The notes under the pieces: model-generated
Seen by the model: the letters and a program-made list of their open reading frames with translations, nothing else
Told to the model about the DNA's origin: nothing
The model's database searches: none
Made by a program: the position numbers and the translations under genes
DNA from: J088 sp003695505 [NCBI: Candidatus Dadabacteria bacterium]
GTDB taxonomy: Bacteria; J088
NCBI GenBank assembly: GCA_003695505.1
Contig: RFIY01000022.1
Span: forward strand, 1-5,443
DNA: 5,443 nt
Direction: 5' to 3'
Shown: positions 1-5,443 of the stretch, piece by piece
Layout of the letters: each line of letters begins with the position of its first letter
Numbering within the stretch: the first letter of the stretch is position 1

Positions 1-408
1 GCGGTCTTCGAGTCCGCCGGGCGCCATCAGCACCAGGTTGCGCACGCGCTCGGGATGCTCCAGTCCGATCGTGATCGCGACCGCCCCACCCATCGAGTTG
101 CCGACCAGCGTGTAGTCTTCGGCGCCCACCGCGGCGGCAAACTCGACGATGCCGCGTACGAGATCTTTGTATGTGAATGTCGGCGTCTCGGTGATACTGG
201 AATAGCCATATCCGAGCATGTCCGGTACCAGGCAGCGAAATCCGGCTGCTGCGATTTCGGGCGCATTGAGCCGGAAATTGCTCCAGCCGCTCGCGCCCGG
301 ACCGCTGCCGTGGACAAAGATCACCGCCGGCCCCTCGCCATATTCGTGGTAGTGGACCCGGTAGCCGTCGAAAATCTCGACGTACTTGCCCTCTGGTACG
401 GCGCTCAT
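1..408 (-). CDS. hsaD: Meta-cleavage product hydrolase, HsaD/BphD-like alpha/beta hydrolase (partial, N-terminal 136 aa)
   Basis: This serine-type C-C bond hydrolase would cleave the dienone product of extradiol ring opening; in steroid degradation HsaD splits 4,9-DSHA into DOHNAA and 2-hydroxyhexa-2,4-dienoate. The window shows residues 1-136 of a family usually about 280-290 long, so the acid and histidine of the catalytic triad lie beyond position 1. Visible are the oxyanion-hole segment HGSGPGASGW (33-42), typical of meta-cleavage hydrolases, the loop DMLGYGYS (63-70), the nucleophile elbow GNSMGG (103-108, nucleophile Ser105) and LVLMAPGGL (125-133). The reading frame is open to the edge. 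The ATG at 408-406 overlaps the stop of the dioxygenase gene by one base (TGATG), and an AAGGA Shine-Dalgarno lies 9 nt upstream, which suggests translational coupling. The family is near certain. The steroid-specific role rests on its neighbours; a biphenyl or other aromatic substrate remains possible. Confidence 0.9.
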   Translation of the reverse strand, partial: MSAVPEGKYVEIFDGYRVHYHEYGEGPAVIFVHGSGPGASGWSNFRLNAPEIAAAGFRCLVPDMLGYGYSSITETPTFTYKDLVRGIVEFAAAVGAEDYTLVGNSMGGAVAITIGLEHPERVRNLVLMAPGGLEDR

Positions 409-1322
409 CAGCTCGATTCCTTTTGCCGCCGAAACAGCTTCTTGCACATCGCGGCCGGGTGCTCGTGACCCCAGTCACTGATGCGATCGTACACAAACGT
501 GTTCCACTCGTCGTCGTTGAGGATTTCCAGCCCACCCCAGCCGTATTCGAACTGGAAACCGGACGGCGTCTCGGCGTAGAACGAGATCATGCGATCGTTG
601 GGATGCCGTCCGATCGCATTCCAGACCGGCAGACCCGCATCGACGATCCGGTCCCAGCACTTGCCGACGTCGTCGATCTCGTTGGCTTCGAGCATGAAAT
701 GGTGGATGTGCTTCGGCAGATTTCCGCCGACCGCAATCGAGTGATGGCGCGGATTGCAATGCGTGAACGCGATGTTGACGTGATAGCCGCCGATGTCACA
801 GATGATCCGGTCACTGAGGCGGAAACCAAGGCCGTTGAGCAGAAAGTCGAGCGTCGTATCCATGTCATCGGCCCTCAGCACGAAATGACCGAGGCCGAGA
901 TCGCCGGTCTTGAAACCGCCCGTGCAGACCGGGCTGCTGAACGCGCCTGCTTTTGCCGGTCCGTACACGGCTTCGAAGCGAACCCCGCCCGGTTCCTGAA
1001 ACGAGATGCCGCCTTCGACCTGGCGTGCCGCAATCGTCGCGTCATCGAGTGGCGTGCTGTCAACGCCGTGGGCCGCCAGCCGCTCGCCGAGCGCCGCAAC
1101 CGCATCGGCGTCCGCGACCTCCAGTCCAACGAACAGCAGATCGTCGGACGGATCGGGCGTAACGAAAAATCGGTTCGCGTACTCATCATGTCGCAGCGTA
1201 AAGCCGCCGCCGGCGAGCTCCCGCCCCTCGACGAGGCCGAGCAGCCGCGTGCCGACATCACGCCAGGCATCGAGATCGCTGACGCCGAATCCAAGATAAC
1301 AGAGCTGTTTGACTTCACTCAT
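408..1322 (-). CDS. hsaC: Type I extradiol ring-cleavage dioxygenase, HsaC/BphC-like (two-domain VOC fold)
   Basis: This 304-residue Fe(II) enzyme opens a catechol ring next to the hydroxyls with O2; in steroid catabolism HsaC/TesB converts 3,4-DHSA to 4,9-DSHA. The length is normal for the two-domain BphC class. The N-terminal, non-catalytic VOC domain (about 5-120) begins with LGFGVSDLDAWRD. The C-terminal domain (about 140-270) carries the expected metal ligands: His146 (GLGHFVLR), His208 (in KHIHHFML) and Glu259 (in FQFEYGWGG). It also has the active-site histidine pair in NPRHHSIA (193-194) and His240 and Tyr249 in GRHPNDRMISFYAETPSG, matching catalytic positions known from BphC. The start at 1322 gives the standard N-terminus, with a modest GCAGG 5 nt upstream and 17 nt after the stop of the monooxygenase gene; it is the second gene of the minus-strand operon. 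No key residue is missing. The substrate is inferred from context; DNA alone cannot separate HsaC from BphC-type specificity. Confidence 0.93.
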   Translation of the reverse strand: MSEVKQLCYLGFGVSDLDAWRDVGTRLLGLVEGRELAGGGFTLRHDEYANRFFVTPDPSDDLLFVGLEVADADAVAALGERLAAHGVDSTPLDDATIAARQVEGGISFQEPGGVRFEAVYGPAKAGAFSSPVCTGGFKTGDLGLGHFVLRADDMDTTLDFLLNGLGFRLSDRIICDIGGYHVNIAFTHCNPRHHSIAVGGNLPKHIHHFMLEANEIDDVGKCWDRIVDAGLPVWNAIGRHPNDRMISFYAETPSGFQFEYGWGGLEILNDDEWNTFVYDRISDWGHEHPAAMCKKLFRRQKESS

Positions 1323-1339: not shown

Positions 1340-2527
1340 TCAGATGAAATAATCGGTGTTCTTGAGCCCCATGCGCACGCTACCGTAGTTGCGCCCCGGT
1401 TTGTCCGGGTTGTTCGCGTAGTGGGCCCTTGCGGCGCGCAGATCCTGAAAGTAGCGGTTGATCGGATTCTTCAAAAAGATTGCCGCGCCTCCGCTCTCGT
1501 TCATCAGCAGCTCGCACGCTTCGAGGCAGCGCGTGACGACCCGCGCCGAGTGATAGCGCCAGGCGACGCGCTCGTCGACCGGAATCTTCTCGCCGCGCTG
1601 CACATAGGCCATCATGTCGTCCAGATTGCGTTCGAGCACCAGCACGAGTTCATCGATGACCGCTTCGGCATTGGCGACGGCGTGTTGCGCGCCGGCCTGC
1701 TGCGCGACCGCGTCGCCGCTGCCGCGCATCACGCGGTTCTGCTGAACCTCCAGGTACGCATCCAGCGCGCCCTGCAGCATGCCGATCGCGCCGGTTGAGA
1801 CGGCACGCACGAACAACTGACCAAAAGGCAGTCGAAACAATGGCGCATCGTTGACCGCGTTGCCCGGATTTTCCTGGCGAAAACCATCCGAAAACTTGTG
1901 GATCCGGTGCGACGGCACGAATTTGTTGTCCACGCGAATCGTCTTGCTGCCGGTCGCCTTCAGGCCGGACACGAACCAGTCGTCGACAATCTCATAGTCA
2001 CTGCGCGGAACGAGAAAGGTCACCATGTCCGGCGGGCCGTCGCCGTCCTTCTTTGGCACGAAACCACCGAGGAAAACCCATGTGCAGTGATCGCAGCCGC
2101 TGGAAAAGCCCCATTCGCCGCTCAACATCACGCCGCCATCAGTATGCTCGACCTTGCCGACCGGCATGTACGATGACGAAATCAGCGTGCTGTCGTCCTC
2201 GCCCCAGACATCGACCTGCGCCTGTTCGGGAAACAACGCCAGTTGCCACTGGTGAATCCCGATCACGCCATAGATCCAGGCCGTCGATGGACAGCCCCTT
2301 GCCAGTTCCCGCTGGATCGCGAAAAACGTGTGCGGGGCGCACTCATAGCCCCCGAATTGACGGGGCTGGAGGACACGGAAGAAACCCGCCTCGTGCATTT
2401 CCTGCACGGTCTCGACGGGCACCATGCGGGCAGCCTCGGCCGCGTCCGCGCGCTCGCGCAGTCGCGGTACCATGTCGCTGGCGCGCTGAACCAGTTCGTC
2501 GTGGGTCGGTATCGTCTTCGTCGTCAT
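1340..2527 (-). CDS. hsaA: Flavin-dependent aromatic monooxygenase, HsaA-like (acyl-CoA dehydrogenase fold)
   Basis: This is the oxygenase half of a two-component phenol hydroxylase that uses reduced flavin from a separate reductase. HsaA converts the secosteroid 3-HSA to the catechol 3,4-DHSA. The protein is 395 residues, close to mycobacterial HsaA (about 394). Matches to what I recall of HsaA include GFFRVLQPRQFGG (48-60), WGEDDSTLISSSYMP (108-122), the flavin-region block WGFSSGCDHCTW (139-150), FLVPRSDYEI (171-180) and VSGLKATGSKT (186-196). The C-terminal RAHYANN (367-373) holds His369, at the place of the catalytic histidine of HsaA. It is the first gene of the leftward operon and makes the substrate of the next enzyme. 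An AGGAG lies 11 nt upstream of the ATG (2543-2539), a slightly long spacing. No HsaB-type reductase is in the window, so its partner must be encoded elsewhere. DszC or p-hydroxyphenylacetate hydroxylase relatives are less likely alternatives. Confidence 0.88.
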   Translation of the reverse strand: MTTKTIPTHDELVQRASDMVPRLRERADAAEAARMVPVETVQEMHEAGFFRVLQPRQFGGYECAPHTFFAIQRELARGCPSTAWIYGVIGIHQWQLALFPEQAQVDVWGEDDSTLISSSYMPVGKVEHTDGGVMLSGEWGFSSGCDHCTWVFLGGFVPKKDGDGPPDMVTFLVPRSDYEIVDDWFVSGLKATGSKTIRVDNKFVPSHRIHKFSDGFRQENPGNAVNDAPLFRLPFGQLFVRAVSTGAIGMLQGALDAYLEVQQNRVMRGSGDAVAQQAGAQHAVANAEAVIDELVLVLERNLDDMMAYVQRGEKIPVDERVAWRYHSARVVTRCLEACELLMNESGGAAIFLKNPINRYFQDLRAARAHYANNPDKPGRNYGSVRMGLKNTDYFI

Positions 2528-2604: not shown

Positions 2605-2618
2605 TGAAACACGTTTCA
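2605..2618. promoter_or_regulatory. Operator 1, KstR-type palindrome (TGAAACACGTTTCA) before the HsaA-like operon
   Basis: This is a perfect 6+6 inverted repeat with a 2-base centre, and it fits TnnAACnnGTTnnA, the consensus I recall for the TetR-family repressor KstR of cholesterol catabolism. It lies inside a wider inverted repeat (GGTAAA at 2596-2601 and TTTACC at 2620-2625). On the minus strand it shares the 11-mer TGAAACGTGTT with operator 2, so each divergent gene has a copy in the same orientation relative to itself. Its centre is about 84 bases upstream of the HsaA-like start codon. A weak minus-strand promoter may overlap it: TTGCGG at 2631-2626, 17-base spacer, TTCAAT at 2608-2603. 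The palindrome is seen directly; the repressor identity is inference. Confidence 0.65.
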
Positions 2619-2644
2619 CTTTACCCCGCAAGAATGGCTATTGC

Positions 2645-2673
2645 TTGCAACAAACTGAAACGTGTTCTATTAT
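2645..2673 (+). promoter_or_regulatory. Sigma70-type promoter of the Rieske/acyl-CoA dehydrogenase operon
   Basis: A -35 element TTGCAA (2645-2650, 4/6 to TTGACA) is followed by an exact 17-base spacer and a -10 element TATTAT (2668-2673, 5/6 to TATAAT). The expected transcription start is near 2680, giving a leader of about 70 bases before the ATG at 2749. Operator 2 occupies most of the spacer and its last two bases overlap the -10, so a bound repressor would exclude RNA polymerase. Confidence 0.65.
2656..2669. promoter_or_regulatory. Operator 2, KstR-type site (TGAAACGTGTTCTA) within the promoter spacer
   Basis: This 14-base site matches TnnAACnnGTTnnA at every fixed position, although its outer right arm is imperfect as a palindrome (GTTCTA instead of GTTTCA). 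Its centre is 51 bases from operator 1 and 19 bases from operator 3. It sits between the -35 and -10 elements of the plus-strand promoter, the classic position for repression by steric exclusion. Binding by a KstR-like TetR protein is inferred. Confidence 0.65.
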
Positions 2674-2690
2674 GTTTGACGTGTCGAACA
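2673..2690. promoter_or_regulatory. Operator 3, variant palindrome (TGTTTGACGTGTCGAACA) at the predicted transcription start
   Basis: This imperfect inverted repeat has 8-base arms TGTTTGAC and GTCGAACA (7 of 8 pairs) around a 2-base centre. Its inner 14 bases (2675-2688) keep the layout of operators 1 and 2 but read GAC/GTC in place of AAC/GTT. It is centred at 2681.5, almost exactly on the transcription start expected from the -10 element. It may be a weaker site for the same repressor or the site of a second regulator. Confidence 0.45.
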
Positions 2691-2748: not shown

Positions 2749-3732
2749 ATGACCACGACGCAGCGCCCCAAGGACCGGATCGAAGGTTACCCACGCGGCT
2801 GGTTTGTGATCGGATTTTCCAACGAGTACGGGCCCGGCGAGATGAAGTCCATGACCTACTTCGGCCAGCGTCTCGTCTGCTTTCGCGGCGAGGATGGGCA
2901 GATTCACGTCCTGGACGCCTGGTGCCCGCACCTTGGTATGGATCTCGGCAAGGGCAAGGTCATCGGCAACACGATCGAGTGCCCGTTTCACGCCTGGCGC
3001 TTCGATGGCGAGGGTCGTTGCGTCGAGATTCCCTACTGCGACAGCGTGCCCAAACGCGCCGCCGAGGGTTCCTGGACACAAAAGTGGACGGTTCAGGAAA
3101 CGAACGGCATGATCCATGTCTGGTTCGACCCCGAAGGCGGCCCGCCCGAATTCGAACTGCCCGAGCTCGGTGAGTGGGGCTCCGATGAGTGGACCGACTG
3201 GCACCACTCGATCGTCCATATCCGCACCCATTCCCGCGAAATCGTCGAAAACGTCGTCGATATCGGCCACTTCGCCCCCGTCCACGGTACGATCGTCGAA
3301 GAGTTCTCGAACGAATTCATCGACCACATGGCGATCCAGTACAACAAGGGCGTCGCCTATCCGCGTGGTGGCGGCAAGGACTACTTCACGCTGAAGGCAA
3401 CCTACTACGGTCCGGGCTTCCAGATCTCGGAGATGTCCGGCTTCCTGGAATCGCGCCTTGTCAACGCCCACACGATGGTCGATGAGAACAGCCTCGACCT
3501 GCGTTTCGGCGTGATGCTGAAGCAGACGCACGATAAGGCAAAAGATGAAGCCTTTGCAAGGCAATACGTCGAAAACCTCACTGTTGGCTTTCAGGAAGAT
3601 ATTCAGGTCTGGGAAAACAAGCTTTACCGCGACGTCCCCCTGCTCTGCGGCAGCGACGGGCCGATCATGCGCCTGCGCAAGTGGTACAAGCAGTTCTATA
3701 CGCCGCGCGAATCCGTCGCGGCCGGGGCCTGA
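2749..3732 (+). CDS. kshA: Rieske non-haem iron oxygenase, KshA-like (3-ketosteroid 9alpha-hydroxylase oxygenase component)
   Basis: KshA, with a separate ferredoxin reductase, inserts a 9alpha-hydroxyl into 1,4-diene-3-ketosteroids; B-ring opening and A-ring aromatisation follow, giving the substrate of HsaA. The Rieske domain (about 15-125) has all four cluster ligands: Cys59-Pro-His61 and Cys78-Pro-Phe-His81 (CPFHAWRFDG). The catalytic domain has Asp171, His174 and His179 in DIGHFAPVHG, spaced as the bridging aspartate and iron histidines of KshA, and Asp284 in QEDIQVW as the carboxylate ligand. SDEWTDW (145-151), YYGPGFQIS (219-227) and the final DVPLLCGSDGP...LRKWYKQFY (295-317) strongly recall KshA. 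At 327 residues it ends just after that block; mycobacterial KshA (about 386) continues some 50 residues, so the C-terminal tail is absent. No KshB reductase is in the window. It is the first gene of the rightward operon, 5 nt before the next. Another KshA-family steroid or terpenoid oxygenase is possible. Confidence 0.85.
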   Translation: MTTTQRPKDRIEGYPRGWFVIGFSNEYGPGEMKSMTYFGQRLVCFRGEDGQIHVLDAWCPHLGMDLGKGKVIGNTIECPFHAWRFDGEGRCVEIPYCDSVPKRAAEGSWTQKWTVQETNGMIHVWFDPEGGPPEFELPELGEWGSDEWTDWHHSIVHIRTHSREIVENVVDIGHFAPVHGTIVEEFSNEFIDHMAIQYNKGVAYPRGGGKDYFTLKATYYGPGFQISEMSGFLESRLVNAHTMVDENSLDLRFGVMLKQTHDKAKDEAFARQYVENLTVGFQEDIQVWENKLYRDVPLLCGSDGPIMRLRKWYKQFYTPRESVAAGA

Positions 3733-3737
3733 GCCGC

Positions 3738-4931
3738 ATGGCCGACCTCGAACAGTTTCGGCAGGAGGTTCGCGCCTGGATCGAGGCGAATGCGCCAGCC
3801 GGGTTGCGCGGCACCCGCAAAGGCAGATTTGACGGGTACTGGGGCGGACGCCTGCATCCGGAACCCGATCCCGATGTGAAGCGCTGGTTCGACGCCTGCC
3901 TGGAACGCGGCTGGACCGCGCCGACGTGGCCGGCCGAGTATGGTGGCGGCGGACTGAGCCGTGCCGAGGCCGAAATCATTGACGAGGAAATGGAGCGCGT
4001 CAAGGTGCCCCCGCCACTGGTCGGGTTTGGCCTCGTCATGATCGGCCCGACCCTGCTCGACTTTGGCACCGACGAACAGAAAGCCGAACACCTGCCAAAG
4101 ATCGTCCGCGGCGAAGTCCGCTGGTGCCAGGGCTACTCCGAGCCGGGCGCCGGCTCCGACCTGGCCGGCCTGCAGACGCGCGCCGAAATCCAGGGCGACA
4201 AAGTGATTGTCAACGGCCAGAAGGTCTGGACCTCCTACGCCGACAAGTCCGACTGGATCTTCGCGCTCGTCCGCACCGACCCGGACGCGAAGAAGCAGGA
4301 AGGGATCACATTTCTGCTGATCGATATGTTGCAGGATGGGGTCACGACGCGCACGATCGACCTGATCAGCGGCTGGTCCCCCTTTTGCGAGGTCTTTTTC
4401 GACAATGCCGTCGCCGAGACGAAAAACATCGTTGGCGGCATCAACAAGGGCTGGACCGTCGCCAAGGCGCTGCTCGGCTATGAGCGCAGCATGATCGGCA
4501 AGGCGATCGAGGGGCAGCTTGCCGGTACCGAGCAGGAGCTGGCCGCCTCCGCCCGCGCACACCTTGGCCGTGACGATGGCCCCCTGCCCGATGCGTCGCT
4601 GCGCCAGCAGCTCGCGCTGTACAGCATCGATGAGCAGTGCTACGCGCAGACCGCGCGACGGATCGCCGAGACGGCGCAGGCGACCGGCGCACCGGGACCG
4701 GAAAGCTCGATCATGAAGGTCGCCGGCTCCGAACTCAAGCAACGCCGCTGGGAGCTGGCGACCCGTATCGCGGGCCTGCACGGTATCGGCTGGGACGGCG
4801 AACCGTTTTCTGAAGACGAGCTGAATACGACGCGGCAATGGCTGCGTTCTCGCGCGAACACGATCGAAGGCGGCTCGACCGAAATCCAGCTCAACATCAT
4901 CGCCAAGCGTGTGCTGGGGCTGCCGTCATGA
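3738..4931 (+). CDS. Acyl-CoA dehydrogenase, catalytic-subunit type (ChsE4/FadE26-like)
   Basis: This FAD-dependent enzyme makes the 2,3-double bond in an acyl-CoA. At 397 residues it has the full ACAD fold: N-terminal helices (EQFRQEVRAWI, 5-15; WPAEYGGGGLS, 64-74), the signature YSEPGAGSDLAGLQT (133-147), VNGQKVWTSYA (158-168) in the beta domain, and a C-terminal helical domain ending NTIEGGSTEIQ (374-384). The position of the MCAD catalytic Glu is Gly here, so the base is probably Glu249 in helix G (LLGYERSMIG), as in isovaleryl-CoA dehydrogenase and FadE26-type steroid enzymes. The 3738 ATG is preferred over an in-frame ATG at 3681, because the extra 19 residues would overlap the KshA-like gene and look unlike an ACAD N-terminus. 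No strong Shine-Dalgarno is seen; coupling across 5 nt is likely. The stop overlaps the next ATG (ATGA). With its neighbour it probably forms a heteromer acting on a steroid side chain or ring-derived CoA ester; the substrate is inferred. Confidence 0.88.
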   Translation: MADLEQFRQEVRAWIEANAPAGLRGTRKGRFDGYWGGRLHPEPDPDVKRWFDACLERGWTAPTWPAEYGGGGLSRAEAEIIDEEMERVKVPPPLVGFGLVMIGPTLLDFGTDEQKAEHLPKIVRGEVRWCQGYSEPGAGSDLAGLQTRAEIQGDKVIVNGQKVWTSYADKSDWIFALVRTDPDAKKQEGITFLLIDMLQDGVTTRTIDLISGWSPFCEVFFDNAVAETKNIVGGINKGWTVAKALLGYERSMIGKAIEGQLAGTEQELAASARAHLGRDDGPLPDASLRQQLALYSIDEQCYAQTARRIAETAQATGAPGPESSIMKVAGSELKQRRWELATRIAGLHGIGWDGEPFSEDELNTTRQWLRSRANTIEGGSTEIQLNIIAKRVLGLPS

Positions 4932-5443
4932 CATTTGTACTCGACGACCAGCAGCAGATGCTCCAGGAGACCTTCGAGCGCTTTTTCCGCGAAAAGGGTT
5001 CCATCGAACGGCTGCGGCAGCTCCGCGAACACCGCGACCAGCCCGGTTGCGACCCTGAACTTTGGCGCGAGATGGCGGAATTGGGTTTCTGCGGCCTGAT
5101 GATCGACGAAGCACACGGCGGGCTGGGTATGGGCTTGCGTGAAATGGCGCTGCTGTTGCAGCACGCCGGGCAATGGCTGATGCCGGAGCCACTGCTGTCT
5201 TCGGCACTGCTGGCGCCGTCCCTGCTCCGACTTGCCGGTGACAGCGCCCAACAGGATCGCTGGCTGCCGGAACTGGCAGCCGGAACAACGATCGGCGCGG
5301 TCGCCTGGAGTGAGCCGACGACGCGCCTCGATCCCCTCGATCAACGGACGACCGCAACTGCCGCCGGCAACGACTGGGTCCTGAACGGAGAAAAGCAGTT
5401 CGTGCTGGACGGCAACGTCGCGTCTCTGCTGATCGTCAGCGCA
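4928..5443 (+). CDS. Acyl-CoA dehydrogenase, partner-subunit type (partial, N-terminal 172 aa)
   Basis: The ATG overlaps the stop of the preceding dehydrogenase as ATGA, and the frame stays open to the window end. The 172 visible residues cover the N-terminal helical domain (MTFVLDDQQQMLQETFERFF at 1-20; ELWREMAELGFCGLMIDEAHGGLGMG at about 47-72) and the start of the beta domain (AVAWSEP, 119-125; LNGEKQFVLDG near 151-161). WSEP replaces the fuller signature of the upstream enzyme: the glycine/serine-aspartate part (GAGSD) is missing, and TTRLDP follows. This fits the divergent partner subunits of two-gene steroid ACADs (ChsE5 or ChsE1 type), which lack part of the active site and work only with the first subunit. 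The catalytic region is beyond the edge, so this cannot be settled here. A 'GGGG' 8 nt upstream is a poor Shine-Dalgarno, and coupled translation, which would favour equal subunit amounts, is likely. Confidence 0.85.
   Translation, partial: MTFVLDDQQQMLQETFERFFREKGSIERLRQLREHRDQPGCDPELWREMAELGFCGLMIDEAHGGLGMGLREMALLLQHAGQWLMPEPLLSSALLAPSLLRLAGDSAQQDRWLPELAAGTTIGAVAWSEPTTRLDPLDQRTTATAAGNDWVLNGEKQFVLDGNVASLLIVSA

Follow-up and report, generated by a model that had tools for sequence, protein, structure and literature searches.

A predicted KstR-like repressor and its operators between divergent hsaA- and kshA-type genes outside the actinobacteria

How would a bacterium outside the actinobacteria come to carry an actinobacterial type of switch between its steroid genes? 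KstR control of steroid catabolism is known from actinobacteria. The window (the whole stretch of 5,443 nucleotides analysed here; contig C269 of a draft genome of 2.83 Mb in 395 contigs, 84.5% complete) raises this question with a pair of KstR-type palindromes set between two divergent operons.

Divergent operons and the palindromes between them

The minus strand of the window carries an operon of HsaA/C/D type: (i) a HsaA-like monooxygenase oxygenase subunit (1340..2527; NCBIfam HsaA, 424 bits, cut-off 450), whose closest relative in the structure library is a “3-HSA hydroxylase”; (ii) an extradiol dioxygenase of BphC/HsaC type (408..1322), which scores higher with BphC (275 bits) than with HsaC (203 bits), both under the cut-off; and (iii) a BphD/HsaD-type hydrolase (1..447, partial at the window end and scanned over 1-420; BphD 99 bits, HsaD 98 bits). 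The plus strand encodes a KshA-like Rieske oxygenase (2749..3732; Pfam KshA_C, 207 bits), whose closest solved relative is 3-ketosteroid 9alpha-hydroxylase, and then two acyl-CoA dehydrogenases recognized by family-library matches (3738..4931 and 4928..5443, the second partial at the window end). The HsaA/C/D-like and KshA-like assignments made in a preliminary description of this DNA are thus broadly borne out, with all scores under the NCBIfam curated cut-offs; its remark that no regulator gene lies in the window agrees with both the list of open reading frames and the family scans.

Two palindromes matching the KstR consensus TnnAACnnGTTnnA sit between the start codons of hsaA (2527) and kshA (2749), just where they had been described. 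The first predicted operator, the perfect-consensus palindrome TGAAACACGTTTCA (2605..2618), lies 77 bp upstream of the hsaA start codon; the second, TGAAACGTGTTCTA (2656..2669), lies 79 bp upstream of that of kshA. Chance would supply 0.03 matches to TnnAACnnGTTnnA in the window, and two matches were reached in none of 200 shuffles. A third palindrome, TTTGACGTGTCGAA (2675-2688), had been counted with them. It does fit the relaxed pattern, for which three matches were reached in one of 200 shuffles of the window, but its standing as an operator did not survive: a matrix derived from the set of 15 sites described below gives it -14.9, against 19 to 26 for those 15, and 14-mers scoring at least as high occur about 16 times per kb in 20 host stretches. 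This palindrome is background by the matrix and is rejected, so two sites are counted here.

The operator set and its candidate regulator in the host genome

Does the motif mark other genes of the host? The answer differs with the form of the motif. The loose consensus TnnAACnnGTTnnA is not enriched in the host genome (35 matches, 31 for the reversed control) and was rejected as a genome-wide marker, whereas the narrow form TRRAACRYGTTYYA is enriched, mainly before catabolic genes, with 15 sites against one for the reversed control, a ratio that is partly circular since this form was chosen after viewing the host's own sites. The tests independent of that circularity are those in other genomes and at regulator loci. 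Within the host, exact TGAAACRYGTTTCA stands at nine places; the six further sites vary only at bases 2 and 3 of one or both halves, and TAGAAC half-sites are also present in the set.

Thirteen of these 15 sites lie 22-79 bp upstream of a start codon (start codons being our choice), and the targets are mostly steroid or acyl-CoA catabolic genes together with kstR itself. Steroid ring degradation genes are represented by hsaA and kshA (77 and 79 bp). Further single sites precede a thiolase (27 bp), an aldehyde dehydrogenase (32 bp), a FabK-like oxidoreductase (35 bp, with an acyl-CoA synthetase frame beginning 52 bp away on the other side), a FadD8-like ligase that scores under its cut-off (39 bp), an amidohydrolase (42 bp), a gene with a ChsH2-type OB domain (43 bp) and a gene of the epimerase/3beta-HSD family (44 bp). 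The kstR-like gene has a site at 72 bp (C191:5794) and a distal one at 229 bp (C191:5637), and a saccharopine-dehydrogenase-like gene divergent from it has one at 36 bp. Two sites lie before an SDR gene, at 22 and 76 bp, and thereby 125 and 179 bp from divergent ipdA/ipdB-type genes; the site C189:6, at a contig edge, lies 261 bp before a gene that resembles metX by our reading (Pfam: alpha/beta hydrolase only).

Two of these places deserve a closer look. On contig C152 (L063, 2960-7207), the ipdA/ipdB-type genes diverge from the SDR and fadD3-type genes, with the two KstR-type sites between them. The former match PDB entries 6co6 (346 bits) and 6con (290 bits), labelled CoA-transferase alpha and beta subunits, which we take to be IpdAB; the ligase downstream of the SDR gene belongs to the FadD3 family (741 bits, cut-off 657). 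On contig C247 (L068, 2244-3242), the site-bearing epimerase/3beta-HSD-family gene is matched best in NCBIfam by hopanoid-associated HpnA (331 bits, cut-off 368) and next by the sterol demethylase SdmB (188 bits, likewise under its cut-off). Through this gene, the regulon may be connected with polycyclic lipids of the cell itself.

Which protein would read these sites? A KstR-like TetR gene, anticipated in the preliminary description, is present on contig C191 (5880-6506), a contig of the draft bin other than that of the window. Among the 36 TetR_N matches of the genome it stands well apart: its best NCBIfam match is KstR, at 123 bits, with 51 bits for the next TetR protein of the genome, and its closest solved relative is mycobacterial KstR (88 bits), so that KstR is the top match in both the family and the structure library. 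The score is far under the KstR equivalog cut-off (NCBIfam NF033703; 123 versus 280 bits), which makes “KstR-like” a safer name than “KstR”. The ligand-binding half of the protein is diverged. A comparison of recognition helices, also envisaged earlier, sets VALGTFYKRF of the C191 protein beside the consensus sequences VALGTLYRYF (14 actinobacterial rows) and VALGTLYRRF (39 non-actinobacterial rows). In a quick tree, whose outgroup branches are long, the host regulator joins these 39 rows (SH-aLRT 84), and the actinobacterial rows form a group of their own (88). A palindrome precedes the start codon of the C191 gene, which places an operator of the TnnAACnnGTTnnA type in the regulator's own promoter region.

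Directly downstream of the regulator gene lies a second KshA-like Rieske oxygenase (C191, L065, 6503-7504). Contig C102 carries a further TetR gene beside a cytochrome P450 gene (L062, 118-2255), with a KstR-type site at 3592; this TetR protein is not favoured as the regulator, its NCBIfam and PDB matches being weak and none of them to KstR.

Host placement and recurrence in other genomes

Conservation of the regulatory code across phyla had been offered on the condition that the host is not an actinobacterium. In an RpoB tree, built from a fragment on contig C89 only that covers 43% of columns, the host, itself on a long branch, is placed with seven rows of Myxococcota type (99/98); the highest raw RpoB identity is to an Eremiobacterota row (66% over 333, fewer columns). 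From these comparisons we conclude that the host is not an actinobacterium and that, of the groups compared, Myxococcota are its nearest. As its RpoB is only about 60% identical to the compared Myxococcota-type genomes and the branch is long, it may represent a deep-branching lineage of which few genomes have been sampled. Among 77 other genomes related to it only as “same domain”, a set too remote to help with placement, none had the regulator at E<=1e-12.

Both the regulator and the sites recur in Myxococcota, and the conservation across phyla that had been offered conditionally is observed. A search with HsaA gave 49 loci in named genomes, ten of which carry TRRAACRYGTTYYA (L091, L093, L095, L096, L098, L099, L100, L101, L103 and L138). 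By title or NCBI rank, these ten are Myxococcota except L096, ranked as a proteobacterium, and L091, which has no rank; both belong to the same phylum sample (as G083 and G078). The gammaproteobacterial HsaA loci and Rhodoferax, among the same 49, are without TRRAACRYGTTYYA. Sites lie upstream of hsaA in L091, L093, L096 and L101 and upstream of kshA in L099, L101 and L138; in the rest, they precede other genes or lie farther upstream. None of these loci shows the back-to-back arrangement of hsaA and kshA seen in the window; in those with both genes identified, the two share a strand, with kshA upstream of hsaA. The regulator was found in 9 of 23 genomes searched (E<=1e-8), namely in seven of the nine genomes with sites at the hsaA locus, G080 and G083 having sites there and no regulator match, and in two of the 14 others (G088 and G092).

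The association was then followed over 282 genomes sampled from the phylum to which G085 belongs, which the NCBI ranks of its locus (L098) give as Myxococcota. The regulator is present at E<=1e-25 in 73 genomes and absent from 209; since at most 11 candidates per genome were scored, some of these negatives may be false, which would weaken the association, not create it. Regulator and sites co-occur across the phylum: genomes with the regulator average 6.5 sites and those without it 0.7 (Mann-Whitney p 1.8e-33). In total, the 73 regulator genomes hold 471 matches to TRRAACRYGTTYYA and 23 to the reversed control; for the remaining 209 genomes the counts are 144 and 179. At least two sites are found in 66 of the 73 genomes with the regulator and in 21 of the 209 without it; the reversed control also differs between the two groups, in the opposite direction (p 1.4e-4), and both p-values are too small because the genomes are not independent. 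There are exceptions on either side. Seven regulator genomes have at most one site, and G117 (26 sites), G083 (14) and G374 (11) have no regulator match; candidate readings are a regulator missing from draft bins, one missed by the search, or another regulator that reads the same code.

The regulator's own locus provides the second independent test. Of 39 non-actinobacterial regulator loci (two of them from G082), 28 have a TnnAACnnGTTnnA site at the regulator's own start, in a stretch from 350 bp upstream to 40 bp downstream of the estimated start, with 0 for five control patterns; the other 11 loci are without one. In seven of the 39 (L140, L142, L143, L145, L148, L149 and L193), a KshA2-like gene (50-57% identity), homologous to the oxygenase gene that follows the host regulator, lies next to the regulator. 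In the actinobacterial positive control, 12 of 51 genomes of one order pass the KstR cut-off, and all 12 loci carry a site, nine of them TAGAACnnGTTCTA; the half-site is thus mostly TAGAAC in these actinobacterial loci and mostly TGAAAC here. In Pseudomonadota, none of 398 genomes matches at E<=1e-25, with at most seven candidates per genome scored and without a positive control; in the gammaproteobacterial genomes behind L092, L094, L097 and L105, fully scored at E<=1e-8, no regulator was found. Paired sites are common (L096, L099, L100, L101, L103, L138, L180, L186, L193, L194 and L202), and a start-to-start distance of 22 or 46 bp recurs; such spacings hint at two dimers on one promoter.

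A predicted repression switch, its rivals and its relatives

If the palindromes are operators, how would they work? A promoter-like site for kshA, TTGCAA-17-TATTAT (2645..2673, plus strand), recognized by consensus match only, is the sole such site in 2500-2780 (shuffles, mean 0.2), and no promoter was found over operator 1 in the same interval. Operator 2 takes in 12 bases of the 17-base spacer and extends over the first two positions of the -10 box, an overlap that suits repression. Mycobacterial KstR is reported to bind as a dimer, to repress its own gene and, at the kstR promoter, to overlap a putative -10 region (Kendall 2007, PMC1995591), and another paper gives the KstR inducer as a steroid side-chain CoA thioester (PMC8700777). 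By analogy, the KstR-like TetR repressor encoded on C191 would bind each 14-bp palindrome as a dimer; at the kshA promoter, the bound repressor would lie over the spacer and the first bases of the -10 box, thereby excluding RNA polymerase, and the site 77 bp before hsaA would act likewise on the opposite operon. The repressor would also repress its own gene through the two sites upstream. Upon uptake and activation of a steroid, an early CoA-thioester intermediate would bind the repressor and release it, turning the pathway on.

We regard it as highly probable that the two palindromes are operators at which the C191 protein blocks the divergent hsaA and kshA operons until a steroid CoA thioester releases it. 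We infer from the analogy that the protein binds this DNA, that it represses instead of activating, and what induces it; the KstR-like switch proposed in the preliminary description, minus its third site, is supported at the level of sequence. Could the C191 protein bind these sites and yet act in another way than KstR, say by activating transcription or by responding to an inducer that bears no relation to steroid CoA thioesters? Its diverged ligand-binding half, at about 123 bits to the KstR model, would allow this, and one target best matches a hopanoid-associated epimerase, a non-steroid enzyme (331 bits, cut-off 368). However, site 2 overlaps the promoter-like -10 box, as suits repression, and most targets are steroid or acyl-CoA catabolic genes; such a departure is improbable.

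Less probable still, the sites could be operators of a fatty-acid regulator such as PsrA, the steroid genes being part of a general acyl-CoA regulon. The PsrA consensus, GAAAC and GTTTC separated by 2-4 nt, also fits TGAAACACGTTTCA; several site-bearing promoters drive general acyl-CoA genes; and of the 29 other host TetR proteins scanned, 16 have weak matches to the PsrA model (best 6e-17) and one has a match to Bacillus-type FadR (3e-56). Yet over the 282 genomes the sites track the KstR-like gene, at whose own start they lie in 28 of 39 loci; the same set holds TAGAAC half-sites, as at actinobacterial kstR loci; and TnnAACnnGTTnnA has a match at only one of the 29 other host TetR loci. That the palindromes are chance, functionless sequence is disfavoured for sites 1 and 2 and scarcely credible: in its favour are the lack of enrichment of the loose consensus and the background score of the third site, but the narrow form outnumbers its reversed control 15 to 1 and is conserved at hsaA, kshA and kstR in other genomes.

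The predicted operator-bound repression by a KstR-like protein is closest to the KstR regulon of mycobacteria and rhodococci, in which a TetR repressor acts at TnnAACnnGTTnnA. In both, homologous TetR regulators go with palindromes of the same 14-bp design, one of them ahead of the regulator gene and one across a -10 region, and the targets include genes of hsa and ksh type. They differ in that the host here is non-actinobacterial by our placement, the regulator falls under the KstR cut-off and in a sister clade, and the half-site is mostly TGAAAC rather than KstR's TAGAAC. The main difference in targets is that here ipdAB/fadD3-type genes carry the same operator. These genes are a likeness to the KstR2 regulon, but the sites are of KstR type: the region between ipdA and the SDR-fadD3 genes holds two of them, and no KstR2-type operator (<=2 mismatches) was found there. 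A separate KstR2 may exist in the host: PF17932, a KstR2-type domain, occurs in two of the 29 other host TetR proteins scanned, the scan covering all but six of the 36 TetR matches. In actinobacteria, genes of ipdAB and fadD3 type are described as KstR2 targets in HIP degradation (PMC5380842). Another relative in design is EdcR of Caenibius tardaugens, described as a TetR-family repressor that controls divergently transcribed steroid operons and whose palindrome lies over the -10 box (PMC8700777). The locus shares with it a TetR-type regulator (with repression predicted here), divergent steroid operons and a palindrome at the -10 box; unlike the sites here, the EdcR palindrome is TnnCnnTACnAnTnGTAnnGnnA, and EdcR inducers are free estrogens.

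What does this mean beyond the locus? The system is a known one in variant form, unexpected outside actinobacteria; among the matches listed, no earlier report of a KstR-like regulator in Myxococcota was found in the open-licence literature. A broader reading, which we hold tentatively and at slightly below even confidence, is that of a KstR-like regulon, its operator code kept across phyla, widespread in Myxococcota and relatives, which in this host merges ring-degradation genes with those of ipdAB/fadD3 type and which either predates the division between KstR and KstR2 or reflects transfer of the regulator together with its targets. The regulator, in 73 of 282 sampled Myxococcota genomes, suggests a group of potential steroid users that has received little notice, and together with TGAAACRYGTTTCA it makes a sequence tag for finding steroid pathways. 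The differences between the two sides, TAGAAC versus TGAAAC in the half-site and RYF versus RRF or KRF at the helix end, make up a natural experiment in the joint change of repressor and operator.
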